Shown: positions 11,881-43,406 of the stretch, piece by piece
How the letters are laid out: each line of letters opens with the position of its first letter
Numbering within the stretch: position 1 is the stretch's first letter
Assembly (NCBI GenBank): GCA_017886765.1
Contig: JAGHJI010000054.1
Coordinates: 1-44,989 of the forward strand
DNA length: 44,989 nucleotides
Direction of reading: 5' to 3'
From: Eubacterium sp.
GTDB taxonomy: Bacteria; Bacillota; Clostridia; Oscillospirales; Acutalibacteraceae
Program-made: the position numbers and the translations under genes
The notes under the pieces: generated by a model
What the model was told of the DNA's origin: nothing
The model's input: the letters and a program-made list of their open reading frames with translations, nothing else
Database searches by the model: none

Positions 11881-12549
11881 TCACCCGAAAATAAGTCTGG
11901 GAATAATTGAAATGAAATCAAGCATCCTGTTGGTAAGCCATGCGATCGGCGTATTGAGCAGACCGGTAAAGAGCAGTATCATCAGGGCGATCATAATATA
12001 TCTGTCATACTGCATAATTTTAAAATAAATTTTATCCGGAAGAACAGCGGAAAAAATCTTTGCTCCGTCCAGCGGCGGTATAGGCAGAATATTAAATACT
12101 GCCAGCATGACGTTTACCTGCGCGGCATAGAGGAAGAAATATCCGAGCGCCGCAACGCCGGCGTTTATGCTGCCGGCAGCGTTAATAATATAGTAAATGA
12201 AAACCGAAACAAATCCCATAAGGAGATTTGAAACCGGACCTGCCAAAGCAACGAGCGCCATATCACGTCTCGGGTGGCGCAGTCTTGCGGGATTGACCGG
12301 CACCGGCTTTGCGTAACCTATGCCGAAAAGCAGAATCATAATCGTTCCGATCAGATCCAGATGCGCAAAAGGGTTGATTGTAAGTCTGCCCTTAAGCTTG
12401 GCGGTATCATCCCCGCATTTATACGCAGCATAGCCGTGGGCAAGCTCATGGATGGGCATACAGCAGAATATTACAAAACATTTTGATAATATAATGATCA
12501 TAAAGCTCAGGTAATCTCCTGATCTTAAAAGGCTTAACATTTGACTCAT
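11881..12549 (-). CDS. Site-2 protease family (M50) membrane metalloprotease
   Basis: A 222-residue intramembrane protease-like protein with the zinc motif H34-E-L-A-H38 and the third-ligand motif NILPIPPLDGAKI near residue 155. Hydrophobic segments match the compact YwhC-type M50 family rather than RseP or SpoIVFB, because no PDZ or CBS domain is present. The substrate is unknown. Such genes are often found beside scpAB in Clostridia. The start ATG 12549 is served by AAGGA within the end of prmC. In many Clostridia prfA follows prmC; here this gene occupies that place. Confidence 0.9.
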   Translation of the reverse strand: MSQMLSLLRSGDYLSFMIIILSKCFVIFCCMPIHELAHGYAAYKCGDDTAKLKGRLTINPFAHLDLIGTIMILLFGIGYAKPVPVNPARLRHPRRDMALVALAGPVSNLLMGFVSVFIYYIINAAGSINAGVAALGYFFLYAAQVNVMLAVFNILPIPPLDGAKIFSAVLPDKIYFKIMQYDRYIMIALMILLFTGLLNTPIAWLTNRMLDFISIIPRLIFG

Positions 12550-28318: not shown

Positions 28319-28394
28319 TGGTGACCCATCGGGGAGTCGAACCCCGGACACCTTGATTAAAAGTCAAGTGCTCTGCCATCTGAGCTAATGGATC
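28319..28394 (-). tRNA. tRNA-Lys (UUU)
   Basis: A cloverleaf of 76 nt: acceptor GATCCAT/ATGGGTC, anticodon loop CTTTTAA giving UUU, T-loop GGTTCGA and an encoded CCA end. It is last of five tRNAs in the cluster. Confidence 0.97.
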
Positions 28395-28419
28395 ATATCA
28401 CCCTGCAAAATCAGGGTGC

Positions 28420-28494
28420 TGGCTGGGGAGGCGGGATTCGAACCCACGCATGACGGAGTCAAAGTCCGTTGCCTTACCGCTTGGCTACACCCCA
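28420..28494 (-). tRNA. tRNA-Gln (UUG)
   Basis: 75 nt with acceptor TGGGGTG/CTCCCCA (one U-U mismatch), anticodon loop CTTTGAC giving UUG, T-loop GGTTCGAAT and an encoded CCA. Confidence 0.96.
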
Positions 28495-28555
28495 ATATCT
28501 TGGGATAGATTATATTAGACTTGTCTGAATTTATAACAAATCCGTTTGTAAAAAA

Positions 28556-28633
28556 TGGGGTGGGATATCGGATTCGAACCGATGACCTCCAGTGCCACAA
28601 ACTGGCGCTCTAACCAACTGAACTAATCCCACC
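28556..28633 (-). tRNA. tRNA-His (GUG)
   Basis: The acceptor stem includes the extra G at -1 that pairs with C73, a tRNA-His feature. The anticodon loop TTGTGGC gives GUG. CCA is encoded. Confidence 0.97.
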
Positions 28634-28673
28634 ATATATGTAAAAGCGCGTTGGCGCTGTTACGGCGTTCTTA

Positions 28674-28750
28674 TGGCGCGCTGAGAGGGACTCGAACCCC
28701 CGACCTACTGCTTAGAAGGCAGTTGCTCTATCCAGCTGAGCTATCAGCGC
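28674..28750 (-). tRNA. tRNA-Arg (UCU)
   Basis: 77 nt with acceptor GCGCTGA/TCAGCGC, anticodon loop CTTCTAA giving UCU, T-loop GGTTCGAGT and an encoded CCA. Confidence 0.97.
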
Positions 28751-28758
28751 AAAATAAA

Positions 28759-28832
28759 TGGAGCGGGTGATGGGAATCGAACCCACACAACCAGCTTGGA
28801 AGGCTGGGATTCTACCATTGAACTACACCCGC
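28759..28832 (-). tRNA. tRNA-Gly (UCC)
   Basis: 74 nt with acceptor GCGGGTG/CACCCGC, anticodon loop CTTCCAA giving UCC and an encoded CCA. It is first in the cluster, about 10 nt after the expected start of transcription. Confidence 0.97.
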
Positions 28833-28839
28833 ATAGCGA

Positions 28840-28864
28840 CGGTCATTATTATACATAATGACCG
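28840..28864. repeat. 10-bp palindrome overlapping the -10 of the tRNA promoter
   Basis: CGGTCATTAT (28840-28849) and ATAATGACCG (28855-28864) are perfect inverted arms around a 5-bp centre. The arms cover the -10 and part of the spacer. It could be an operator, a hairpin that ends Clp transcription, or both. Confidence 0.65.
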
Positions 28865-28876
28865 CCGAAGTGTCAA
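28848..28876 (-). promoter_or_regulatory. Consensus promoter of the tRNA operon
   Basis: Exact consensus on the minus strand: TTGACA (28871-28876), 17 bp, TATAAT (28848-28853). It lies between the Clp gene and tRNA-Gly and should drive all five tRNAs. Confidence 0.85.
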
Positions 28877-28890
28877 GTATTTTTTTAAAA

Positions 28891-31212
28891 TTAATTAATT
28901 TTTATATCTATTTTGTCTTTTGCAGATAACGTGAAAGTTTCAATCTTAATATCCTGATTAAAGACGATCTCATTGGCAAGCTTTTCCTCAACATCCCGTC
29001 TCACAGCGTCACGCAGACCGCGGGCGTTCTTCTTTGAGCCGTACGCTTCTTTGGCAAGGAAAACCGGTACGCTGTCGTCATAAACAAGCGCAATGCCTTT
29101 ATCCTTGAGGCTTTCAACAAGCTCGTCAAGCATCAGTCTCGCAATCTTTTCAAAATTATCGTGGGTAAGCTGATTGAAAACGATGACCTCGTCAACCCTG
29201 CCTAAAAATTCGGGTCTTAAAAATCTTTCAAGGGCTTTCATAGTCACTTCAACATTGATGTCACCCTCCGATTTATTAAAGCCGAGAGAGCCGGAGTCCG
29301 TTGAGCCGGCGTTTGACGTCATGATGATAACCGTGTTCTCAAAGTTTACCGTTCTGCCCTGGGCGTCGGTGATCCTGCCCTCATCAAGTATCTGAAGCAG
29401 GATATTGAGAACGTCTTTATGCGCCTTTTCAATCTCGTCAAACAGGATAACGCTGTAGGGTTTTCTTCTTACCTTTTCGGTAAGCTGACCGGCGTCGTCA
29501 TATCCAACATAACCGGGAGGAGAGCCGATAATTCTGGAAACGCTGAACTTTTCCATAAATTCGGACATATCCAGTCTGATAAGATTATCAGGGCTGTCAA
29601 ACAGCTCGTCAGCCAAGCGCTTAACAAGCTCGGTCTTACCCACGCCGGTAGGACCGACAAAGATAAAGGACTGGGGTCTCCTTTTCGGACTGATCTGTAC
29701 CCTGCCGCGTCTTACTGCGTTGGAAACCTTTTCTATTGCTGTGTCCTGACCGATAATATGCGCTTTCAGATTTTTCTCCAATGAGGCAAGCTTCTTAATA
29801 TCATTCTGCTCAATTTTTGACGCCGGTATACCCGTCCACATGGAAATGACCTTTGCCAAATCCTCCTCAAGCACCTGATTATCCTTCGCTTTTTCCTCCA
29901 ACTCCGGAAGTTCTCCGTCAATCTGGAATATCTCGCTTTTAAGCTTAGTGATCAGCTCATAATCAATGGTATCATTTTCCTCCGGCGAGGACAGTTTTTC
30001 TATATTTTCCTCCAGTAGTCTTTTTCTGTCAAGCTTCATCTGATATTGACTGATAGCAGGATTTCTCAGGTTAGCGCAGGTACAGCTCTCATCAAGCAGG
30101 TCTATCGCCTTATCGGGAAGATAGCGATCCGTCACAAAGCGCTCGGACATAGTGACAGCGCGGTAAACAAGGGAATCAGAGATTCTTACTTTATGGTAAT
30201 CCTCATAATAGCCCTTGATTCCCAGCAGCATTTTATAAGCGTCATCAATCGAGGGCTCCTCAATCTTAATAGGCTGAAAACGTCTTTCCAGCGCAGCATC
30301 CTTTTCAATATATTTACGGTATTCATTAAATGTAGTTGCGCCGATAACCTGTATTTCCCCTCTTGAAAGAGCAGGCTTTAGGATGTTGGCAGCGTTCATT
30401 GTCCCCTCAGAATCGCCGGTGCCCACAAGATTGTGAACCTCGTCGATAAAGAGTATAATGTTGCCCTCGTGTTTTACCTCGTCAACAAGACCTTTTATTC
30501 TGCCCTCAAACTGACCTCTGAACTGCGTTCCCGCAACAAGAGCGGTCAGGTCGAGAAGATAGATTTCCTTGTCTGCAAGGCGAGCAGGCACCTGTCCTTT
30601 GGCAATACGTATGGCCAATCCTTCGGCAATAGCGGTTTTACCTACGCCGGGCTCACCAATCAGGCACGGATTGTTTTTTGTACGTCTTCATAAGATCTGA
30701 ACAGCGCGTGAAATCTCGTTCTCCCTGCCGATAATATTGTCAATCTTCCCCTGCCTTGCCCTGTCGGTCAGATTATTGCAGTAGGTATTAAGAAACTTTC
30801 TCGCGTCATCCTGAGCATTTTTCCTGCCACGCTTAGGACGTCTTTTATTACCGGTATTTTTTGTTTCACTCTCCGCTCCGTCCTCCTGAGGTACAAGAGC
30901 GCCGCCGTTAAACAGCTCATTAAAGGGCATGGTCTGCGCGCCGTCCATATTATCTGGATTGAACATCTCGCCAAGATTACCGAAATCAAAATCGCCCATA
31001 TTCTCCATAAAATTAGCCATCTGCTCGGACGCCATTTCCAGTTCCTCGTCGGAAATACCGAGCTTGTCAATCATCTGGTTTATTGAGCCTATATTCAGCT
31101 CACGGGCGCAATTGATACACAGCCCCTGAGGGGTAACGTTATCCCCCTCCATTTTCTGAATAAACACAACTGCCGGACGTTTGCCGCAGCGTGAACACAT
31201 TTCCTGTTTCAT
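28891..31212 (-). pseudogene. clpC: Clp protease ATP-binding subunit (ClpC-like), interrupted by an in-frame UGA
   Basis: The gene reads as 773 codons in one frame, broken only by TGA at codon 175 (30688-30690). Before it: a zinc ribbon (C6, C9, C32, C35), an acidic linker, and [15 protein letters not shown]. After it: [18 protein letters not shown] with the first Walker A, Walker [11 protein letters not shown], second Walker A GPTGVGKT, Walker B ILFDEIEKAH and the C-terminal D2 domain. Relatives have Cys or Ser at the stop position, so one base change explains it. There is no frameshift. The part after the stop has no ribosome site at its first Met (30618). A recent nonsense mutation, a sequence error or recoding are all possible. 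If intact, the product is an AAA+ unfoldase for ClpP. It is last in the long operon. Confidence 0.85.
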
Positions 31213-31239
31213 TATATCTCCATAGCCTTTCCGTAGATA

Positions 31240-31863
31240 TTACTTACTCTTTTTCTTCTTGTTTTCCTTCAGCTGCCGAATAAAGCCCGGAGCGTATCCG
31301 AGAAGTGAAACAAGCGTGCAGACGGCGGAAATACCGACTAAAATCCAGGTAACAACATCGGGAAGAGTAAAGCCCGTGATTTCACAAAGGGCGCCGTTTT
31401 TTCCAAACGCCAGAATAAATATCATACCGATATAAAATACGTTTGTGGCAACCTTGCCCCATATCTCCGCAGCCGTGGGACGCATACCCAGTGACAGCAG
31501 TAAGGCGCCGCCGATAATCATAATAATTTCCTTGGCAATAAAAAACATAAAGAGATACTTTATGGCGTTATCCCAGTATGTAACGATCAAAACGATTACG
31601 ATTGCCATTTGTGAAAGCTTATCAGCAATAGGGTCAAGTATTTTGCCGAGATTTGACACCTGATTAAATTTTCTTGCAATCTTGCCGTCAAACAAATCCG
31701 TAAGCGCCGCGCAGATCATTATAATGACCGCAGTGAGCTCATAACCTTTTATAAATAGGACGACAAATACGGGTATAAGGGCAATTCTGATAAAGGAAAG
31801 CCAGTTGGGAATGGTGTTCCACCCCTGGAAAAGATCGCTGACATTTTTCTTTAAATCGCTCAT
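31240..31863 (-). CDS. pgsA: CDP-diacylglycerol-glycerol-3-phosphate phosphatidyltransferase
   Basis: A 207-residue membrane enzyme that makes phosphatidylglycerol phosphate. The CDP-alcohol phosphotransferase motif is complete, with D56, D59, G60, A63-R64, G73, D77 and D81 in the stretch ALTDLFDGKIAR...LGKILDPIADK. Several hydrophobic helices follow. A basic tail ends the protein. The start ATG 31863 follows GGAGGT, 12 bp after cvpA. Its place in a long housekeeping operon supports the phosphatidylglycerol role rather than another CDP-alcohol acceptor. Confidence 0.93.
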   Translation of the reverse strand: MSDLKKNVSDLFQGWNTIPNWLSFIRIALIPVFVVLFIKGYELTAVIIMICAALTDLFDGKIARKFNQVSNLGKILDPIADKLSQMAIVIVLIVTYWDNAIKYLFMFFIAKEIIMIIGGALLLSLGMRPTAAEIWGKVATNVFYIGMIFILAFGKNGALCEITGFTLPDVVTWILVGISAVCTLVSLLGYAPGFIRQLKENKKKKSK

Positions 31864-42239: not shown

Positions 42240-43406
42240 ATGATAAATAAAATACTTGACAACATAATCAACAAGAAAAAATGGAACGCCTCGGCATCCC
42301 GTGAAAAGCTGGGCATATTCAGCGGCATATTCGGAATCATCTGCAATGTTCTGCTTTGCTCGGTGAAATTTTTGATTGGCTCGCTTACCGGCTCGGTATC
42401 CATTACCGCCGACGCAGTGAACAATCTGTCCGACGCCGGTTCAAGCATCGTCACGATTGCCGGAACAAAGCTGGCCAACAAGCCTGTGGACGAGGAGCAT
42501 CCTTTCGGTCACGGCAGAATTGAGTATATTTCCGCGCTGATTGTTTCCTTTTTAATTTTCCTGATGAGTATCGAGCTTGCAAAAAATTCAATAACCAAGA
42601 TTATCCATCCTGCGGATGTTGATTTCAGCGGCTGGTATATAGCCGTGCTGATCCTTGCCGTTCTGGTAAAATTGTTTATGGCTTACATCAACAACATACT
42701 GTACAGAAAAACAGATAATCTTAATTTAAAAGCCGTCAGACAAGACAGTCTGAATGACTGTATCGCCACCGGCGCTACGATAGTCGCCCTGCTGATCTCA
42801 GCCTTTACACCGTTCAAAAGGGCTGACGGAATCATCGGTCTTGCCGTAGCAGTAATCATTTTCCTGGCAGGTGTTGATATCGTTAAGGATATTCTCGGGC
42901 GGCTTTTGGGCCAGCCGCCGTCAGAAGAGCTTGTAAAAAATATTGAAAGAATCATGCTTGACGAAGAACAGATCGTGGGTGTGCATGATCTGATCGTGCA
43001 CGATTACGGACCGGGAAGAATCATTGCCTCTGTTCACGCAGAAGTACCGTCCACGGCGGATATCGTTGAGATACATGATATAATAGACAATGTGGAAAAG
43101 AAGATATCCAAGGAACTTAAAATCGTTATCTGCATCCATATGGACCCGATTGTCGTAAACGACGAGGAGGTTGACCGCTACAAAGCGCTCACCCGGAATG
43201 TACTTGACGGCATAAACGAACAGTACAGCTTCCATGACTTTAAGATGGTAAAGGGTCCTACGCATACGAATCTTATATTTGACTTAGTTGTACCCTATGA
43301 AAAACACAAGACCGGTTCCGACATTCTGAGAGAACTGAGAAATAAATTTAAAGAAGTGGACGAAACGATAAACCTTGTGGTAACGGTGGAACATTCCTAT
43401 GTATGA
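42240..43406 (+). CDS. Cation diffusion facilitator (CDF) family transporter
   Basis: A 388-residue metal/proton antiporter exporting divalent cations such as zinc, iron or manganese. Six helices are expected. Metal-site residues are D58, N61 and D65 in ITADAVNNLSDAGSS and H87 and H91 in EEHPFGHGRIEYIS. The cytoplasmic C-terminal domain has VHDLIVHDYGPGRIIASVHAEV and ICIHMDPI. The start is ATG 42240 behind GAGG; the upstream ATG 42213 lies on the -10. The metal is not predictable by eye. It is one of two plus-strand protein genes in the window. Confidence 0.92.
   Translation: MINKILDNIINKKKWNASASREKLGIFSGIFGIICNVLLCSVKFLIGSLTGSVSITADAVNNLSDAGSSIVTIAGTKLANKPVDEEHPFGHGRIEYISALIVSFLIFLMSIELAKNSITKIIHPADVDFSGWYIAVLILAVLVKLFMAYINNILYRKTDNLNLKAVRQDSLNDCIATGATIVALLISAFTPFKRADGIIGLAVAVIIFLAGVDIVKDILGRLLGQPPSEELVKNIERIMLDEEQIVGVHDLIVHDYGPGRIIASVHAEVPSTADIVEIHDIIDNVEKKISKELKIVICIHMDPIVVNDEEVDRYKALTRNVLDGINEQYSFHDFKMVKGPTHTNLIFDLVVPYEKHKTGSDILRELRNKFKEVDETINLVVTVEHSYV

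Follow-up and report, generated by a model that had tools for sequence, protein, structure and literature searches.

The window, the whole stretch of 44,989 nucleotides that was analysed, carries on its minus strand a clpE-like gene (28891-31212) that is interrupted once. Translation from 31212 to 28891 gives a single frame of 773 codons followed by a terminal TAA, and the sole internal stop is a TGA at codon 175 (30688-30690), where relatives have a Cys codon. Both the stop and the intact remainder of the gene are read directly from the sequence. A 174-codon N-terminal part (30691-31212), which contains two CxxC pairs, a linker and the start of the first AAA+ module, precedes the TGA, and a C-terminal part of 598 codons plus the TAA (28891-30687), which contains the Walker A motifs, an LGF motif and the Pfam domains, follows it. 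The open reading frame list splits this frame in two (30688-31212 and 28891-30618), and the initial annotation had rightly joined the pieces as parts of one frame divided by one TGA. The gene is flanked by pgsA (encoding a CDP-alcohol phosphatidyltransferase) and by a cluster of five tRNA genes. The draft assembly comprises 91 contigs with a total of 1,902,614 bases, and its listed completeness is 97.94%.

The N-terminal part matches no Pfam family at an E-value of 0.001. Its two CxxC pairs lie at residues 6 and 9 and at residues 32 and 35, and all four cysteines are kept in at least 80% of 40 relatives. The part after the stop has the conserved domains AAA, AAA_lid_9, AAA_2 and ClpB_D2-small. 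The Walker A motifs of the frame are at codons 186 and 520 and the LGF motif is at codon 643; this LGF motif is the one feature seen that bears on a putative role as an unfoldase partner of ClpP. In NCBIfam, the top models for the two pieces of the gene are ClpA and ClpB, and all matches are under their cut-offs. No model named ClpE matched, and the label clpE-like is our own assumption, taken from the zinc-finger Clp ATPases. Judged by these motifs and domains, the protein is of the ClpE type: it shares with such ATPases an N-terminal CxxC...CxxC region (a predicted zinc finger), two AAA+ modules, the D2-small domain and the LGF motif, and differs from them in that its gene is broken by the TGA at codon 175.

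The nearest named relative by the N-terminal part is the metagenome-assembled "Candidatus Eubacterium faecigallinarum" (L010; 87%), which has a DNA identity of 79.8% to the window over approximately 6 kb. When the read-through frame is used as query, matches are found in 59 of 60 close genomes (including the genome of the window), and among the matches listed the internal stop is present only in the window's own. A clpE-like gene with 78-90% identity and without an internal stop is found in 31 of the 36 other genomes of the genus; 30 of these genes span the frame completely or fall one residue short of its end, and one reaches residue 704. G006, G008, G017, G018 and G020, also of this genus, have no match to the gene type (completeness of 68-79% for four of them and 99% for G008). 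With the 100-residue stretch around the stop, 297 of 300 family genomes match, and the window's own is again the only stop-bearing row among the matches listed. The uniqueness of the stop among the relatives examined is, like the stop itself, directly established.

A row at the codon 175 site is obtained for 66 of 71 clp loci (nine further loci are not clp loci and fall outside the 71). The Cys codon is identical in 65 of these rows, and TGA stands only in the row of the window's own copy. Once duplicates are removed, the identical Cys codon is present at this site in all 56 distinct stretches from relatives (drawn from 72 rows, with the window's two copies and two paralogous ClpC loci left out). 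The aligned residue is Ser in both copies of the paralogous ClpC that were examined (L138 and L139). The initial annotation had expected Cys or Ser at this position and had described the change as Cys-to-UGA; both statements hold, with Cys in the same gene type and Ser in the two ClpC copies. The Cys at codon 175 is not known to be a redox-active site. The other Cys columns of the clp gene use mixed codons, unlike the codon 175 column, whose Cys codon is one of six invariant codons among 393 invariant residues. A DNA-level signal at the invariant Cys codon was considered and, given that there are six such codons among the 393, was not built on.

In the same assembly, all that is present of the canonical ClpC paralogue is a C-terminal frame of 169 residues, cut off by the end of contig C16 (L081, end at 59383). 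This fragment is 87.5% identical to the ClpC of G011 over 168 residues, and we read the truncation as an assembly gap and not as a loss of the gene.

In a codon alignment of the window and 40 distinct full-length relatives, strong purifying selection acts on the clpE-like gene, by these sequence comparisons, both before and after the stop. Between the window and L010, the nearest relative, dN is 0.084 before the stop and 0.029 after it, and dS is 1.1 before and 2.8 after (near saturation). The window has no private changes at otherwise invariant columns. Among the relatives, private changes after the stop range from zero to three and 16 of 40 have none, so that the window is at the low end without being unusual. 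When pairwise counts are split among the window, L010 and L011, approximately 14 nonsynonymous changes after the stop are assigned to the window branch, compared to approximately 26 on the L010 branch. No sign of relaxed selection on the window clp gene is seen in dN, in private changes or in branch counts, and the stop is therefore either very recent or absent from the living population. An established pseudogene was rejected, as the frame has no further stop, dN is low on both sides and no invariant column has changed.

The window was also scanned for other interrupted genes. An initial scan was dominated by antisense frames and a stricter repeat was used, which returned 44 positions. Of these, 41 are plus-strand positions that all lie opposite minus-strand genes and were discounted. 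Among the three minus-strand positions, the clp stop at 30690 has 63 HSPs. The other two positions have one HSP each and were likewise discounted: 30134 is within the clp gene and out of frame, and 42511 is opposite the plus-strand CDF transporter gene. No further interrupted gene was accepted among the 20,463 minus-strand bases that lie under matches from relatives.

The initial annotation excluded a general recoding of UGA on the grounds that it is a true stop elsewhere in the window (prmC and ecfT were named), and this conclusion stands. Release factor RF2 is present (prfB, 536.6 bits; cut-off 370), and eight window genes end in TGA at most one codon from the end of a relative's protein (for five of the eight, by comparison with a single relative each). 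Seven of these stops are on the minus strand, starting at 11883, 12556 (prmC), 13374, 32546, 33751 (truA), 34482 (an EcfT-like gene) and 35284 (ECF ATPase), and one is on the plus strand, starting at 43404 (CDF transporter). The EcfT-like gene has a CbiQ-type match of 94.9 bits, under the cut-off of 111.8. As RF2 is retained and UGA ends eight neighbouring genes, genome-wide reassignment was rejected. A suppressor tRNA was rejected as well, since none is seen at the 40 tRNA places of the genome: in ARAGORN readings of all 40, none has a UCA anticodon (TCA in DNA). Both tRNA-Trp and tRNA-Cys fold normally. In PMC13092985, a tRNA-Trp anticodon stem of 4 bp is tied to UGA decoding; because the tRNA-Trp of this genome has a full anticodon stem of 5 bp, decoding of that type is not indicated. 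No tRNA-Ile(GAU), tRNA-Asn or tRNA-Ala(UGC) is seen among the 40 places either. The tRNA set of the draft is probably incomplete, so a hidden suppressor tRNA gene stays conceivable.

A UGA at a position where all of the relatives' stretches examined have Cys, with a hairpin that can be drawn downstream of it, resembles the arrangement in bacterial selenoproteins, which occur in Cys/Sec pairs and share with this gene a UGA at a Cys position. The window genome differs from theirs in that neither selenocysteine machinery nor a SECIS element was found. SelA has no matches in the genome in a profile search that was positive for the E. coli and M. jannaschii controls, and none of 60 near genomes has a match over the cut-off (a single weak match, in G012, scores 17.8 bits; cut-off 22.8). 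The best SelB match scores 187.8 bits (cut-off 242.25) and is a 413-amino acid frame near a 705-amino acid frame on contig C84; these two are presumably EF-Tu and EF-G. The best SelD match scores 45.9 bits (cut-off 125). For both SelB and SelD, 12 of 14 control genomes likewise match only under the cut-off. The best tRNA-Sec match is close to its threshold (45.8 bits; gathering score 47) but under it, and ARAGORN assigns it to tRNA-Ser (anticodon TGA); five of 14 control genomes have tRNA-Sec matches over the cut-off. The search for sel genes that the initial annotation had proposed as a check hence finds selA absent and selB, selD and tRNA-Sec matches that are all under cut-off. Recoding machinery is directly seen to be lacking in the draft.

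The hairpin that the initial annotation had put forward as a possible SECIS element (30657-30673, minus strand; CAATC/GATTG with loop CGTGCCT) is present with the letters given and is a weak one of 5 bp. It starts 14 nt past the UGA, close to the approximately 15 nt originally noted, and overlaps the conserved NPCLIG codons, as had also been pointed out. Its proposed role is not borne out. The 60-nt stretch from the TGA onwards has a folding z-score of +1.57 (193 of 200 shuffled sequences are at least as stable), and none of 40 distinct relatives forms all five pairs (two pairs form in 16 of them, three in 13 and four in 11). A search of 30000-31300 against Rfam gave no SECIS and a single match, to a snoRNA, which is sub-threshold (E-value: 0.79). 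A literature search joining selenocysteine with ClpC found only a paper concerned with non-canonical amino acids in studies of proteases. By the machinery, the relatives and the hairpin, selenocysteine is ruled out as far as the 97.94%-complete draft allows, and insertion of this residue to give a new selenoprotein Clp ATPase is extremely improbable. The feature is most likely an ordinary one and not a new selenium-containing protein.

The stop in the clpE-like gene of this Clostridia strain, which is of gut type, is probably a recent private nonsense mutation. This explanation is favoured by several observations: the TGA is the only break in the frame, every distinct stretch from relatives has Cys at the site, the only stop-bearing row among the matches listed in the 60 close and 300 family genomes is the window's own, selection is purifying on both sides of the stop without relaxation on the window branch, and neither selenocysteine machinery nor a suppressor tRNA was found. 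We infer that the cell itself carries the TGA and has lost the product. Against this explanation, so conserved a gene would not readily be expected to be lost, and the ClpC that could serve as a backup is known as a fragment at a contig end, its presence being deduced across an assembly gap. In addition, the lack of a companion lesion is explained equally well by an error. A wrong base in the draft consensus, arising from sequencing error, strain mixture or DNA damage, would leave the gene of the cell intact, and this is a possible, if more doubtful, explanation. It would fit a draft of 91 contigs in which the paralogous clpC is cut at a contig end, and it would account for a difference that stands alone in a gene otherwise free of lesions and under strong constraint. 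However, even the nearer window end is approximately 14 kb away from the base, which is thus not at a contig edge, and the 20,463 comparable minus-strand bases gave no second interrupted gene that was accepted. A literature search on premature stops as assembly errors or pseudogenes in metagenome-assembled genomes returned no papers. That a nonsense mutation is preferred over a consensus error is a judgement. The initial annotation had considered a point mutation or an assembly error more likely than selenocysteine; the first two are what remains of its interpretation, and the selenocysteine part is dropped for want of sel machinery over cut-offs and of a stable or conserved hairpin.

It is also conceivable, though improbable, that the UGA is read through by near-cognate tRNAs in a tolerated or regulated manner to give a low level of full-length ATPase. 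The strong purifying selection on the part past the stop would agree with this, as would the frequent readthrough of in-frame stops that is proposed for bacteria in PMC7918605. That study concerns in-frame stops in conserved bacterial genes and kept those shared by at least two species. The gene described here shares with those nonsense substitutions a single stop and an intact and constrained remainder, and differs from them in that its stop is seen in one genome only. For this reason, selection after the origin of the stop cannot be shown. The 5-bp tRNA-Trp stem, unlike the 4-bp UGA-decoding type of PMC13092985, and the lack of a UCA anticodon at the 40 tRNA places also argue against readthrough. 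A real, leaky UGA, with low-level readthrough that is lived with or used as a dial on the level of the unfoldase, is slightly less probable still.

The proposed model for the nonsense mutation is as follows. Translation would end after a 174-residue peptide consisting of the predicted zinc finger and linker. Past the stop, no in-frame ATG, GTG or TTG occurs before codon 199 (a TTG), which is already downstream of the first Walker A motif, and an ATG overlapping the TGA at codon 175 belongs to a different frame; internal restart was rejected on this basis. Because no in-frame start-type codon is found between the stop and that Walker A motif, the first ATPase module of a restarted protein would not work. 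Save for traces from ordinary misreading of UGA, the strain would be left without its ClpE-like ATPase and would depend on its other Clp ATPases.

The locus is a caution for genome annotation, as a UGA in place of a conserved Cys codon mimics a selenoprotein. It also provides a route by which such a candidate can be dismissed, namely a machinery search, the codons of relatives, a hairpin control and constraint along the branch. Should the readthrough be real, the gene would be informative on the frequency with which bacteria go on using genes that contain internal stops.

A nonsense mutation would also be in keeping with G008, the sister genome without a clpE-like match, which offers a hint that the gene can be lost. 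In G008, a repeat of approximately 100 bp follows pgsA where the clp gene should begin. This repeat is found in three places (96-100% identity over 81 bp) and its first approximately 20 bp overlap the end of the pgsA match. The contig itself stops within the repeat, 81 bp beyond that match, so the gene may simply be unassembled. A TAG within the pgsA match falls in the repeat; it belongs to the repeat and was rejected as an internal break of pgsA. A search of G008 with the tRNA cluster gave scattered matches only (52-81 bases; 79-85% identity). In the window itself, this cluster (28319-28832) is preceded by a 12/12 match to a sigma-70 promoter (TTGACA, 17, TATAAT; 28848-28876, minus strand), which lies directly past the clp stop codon.
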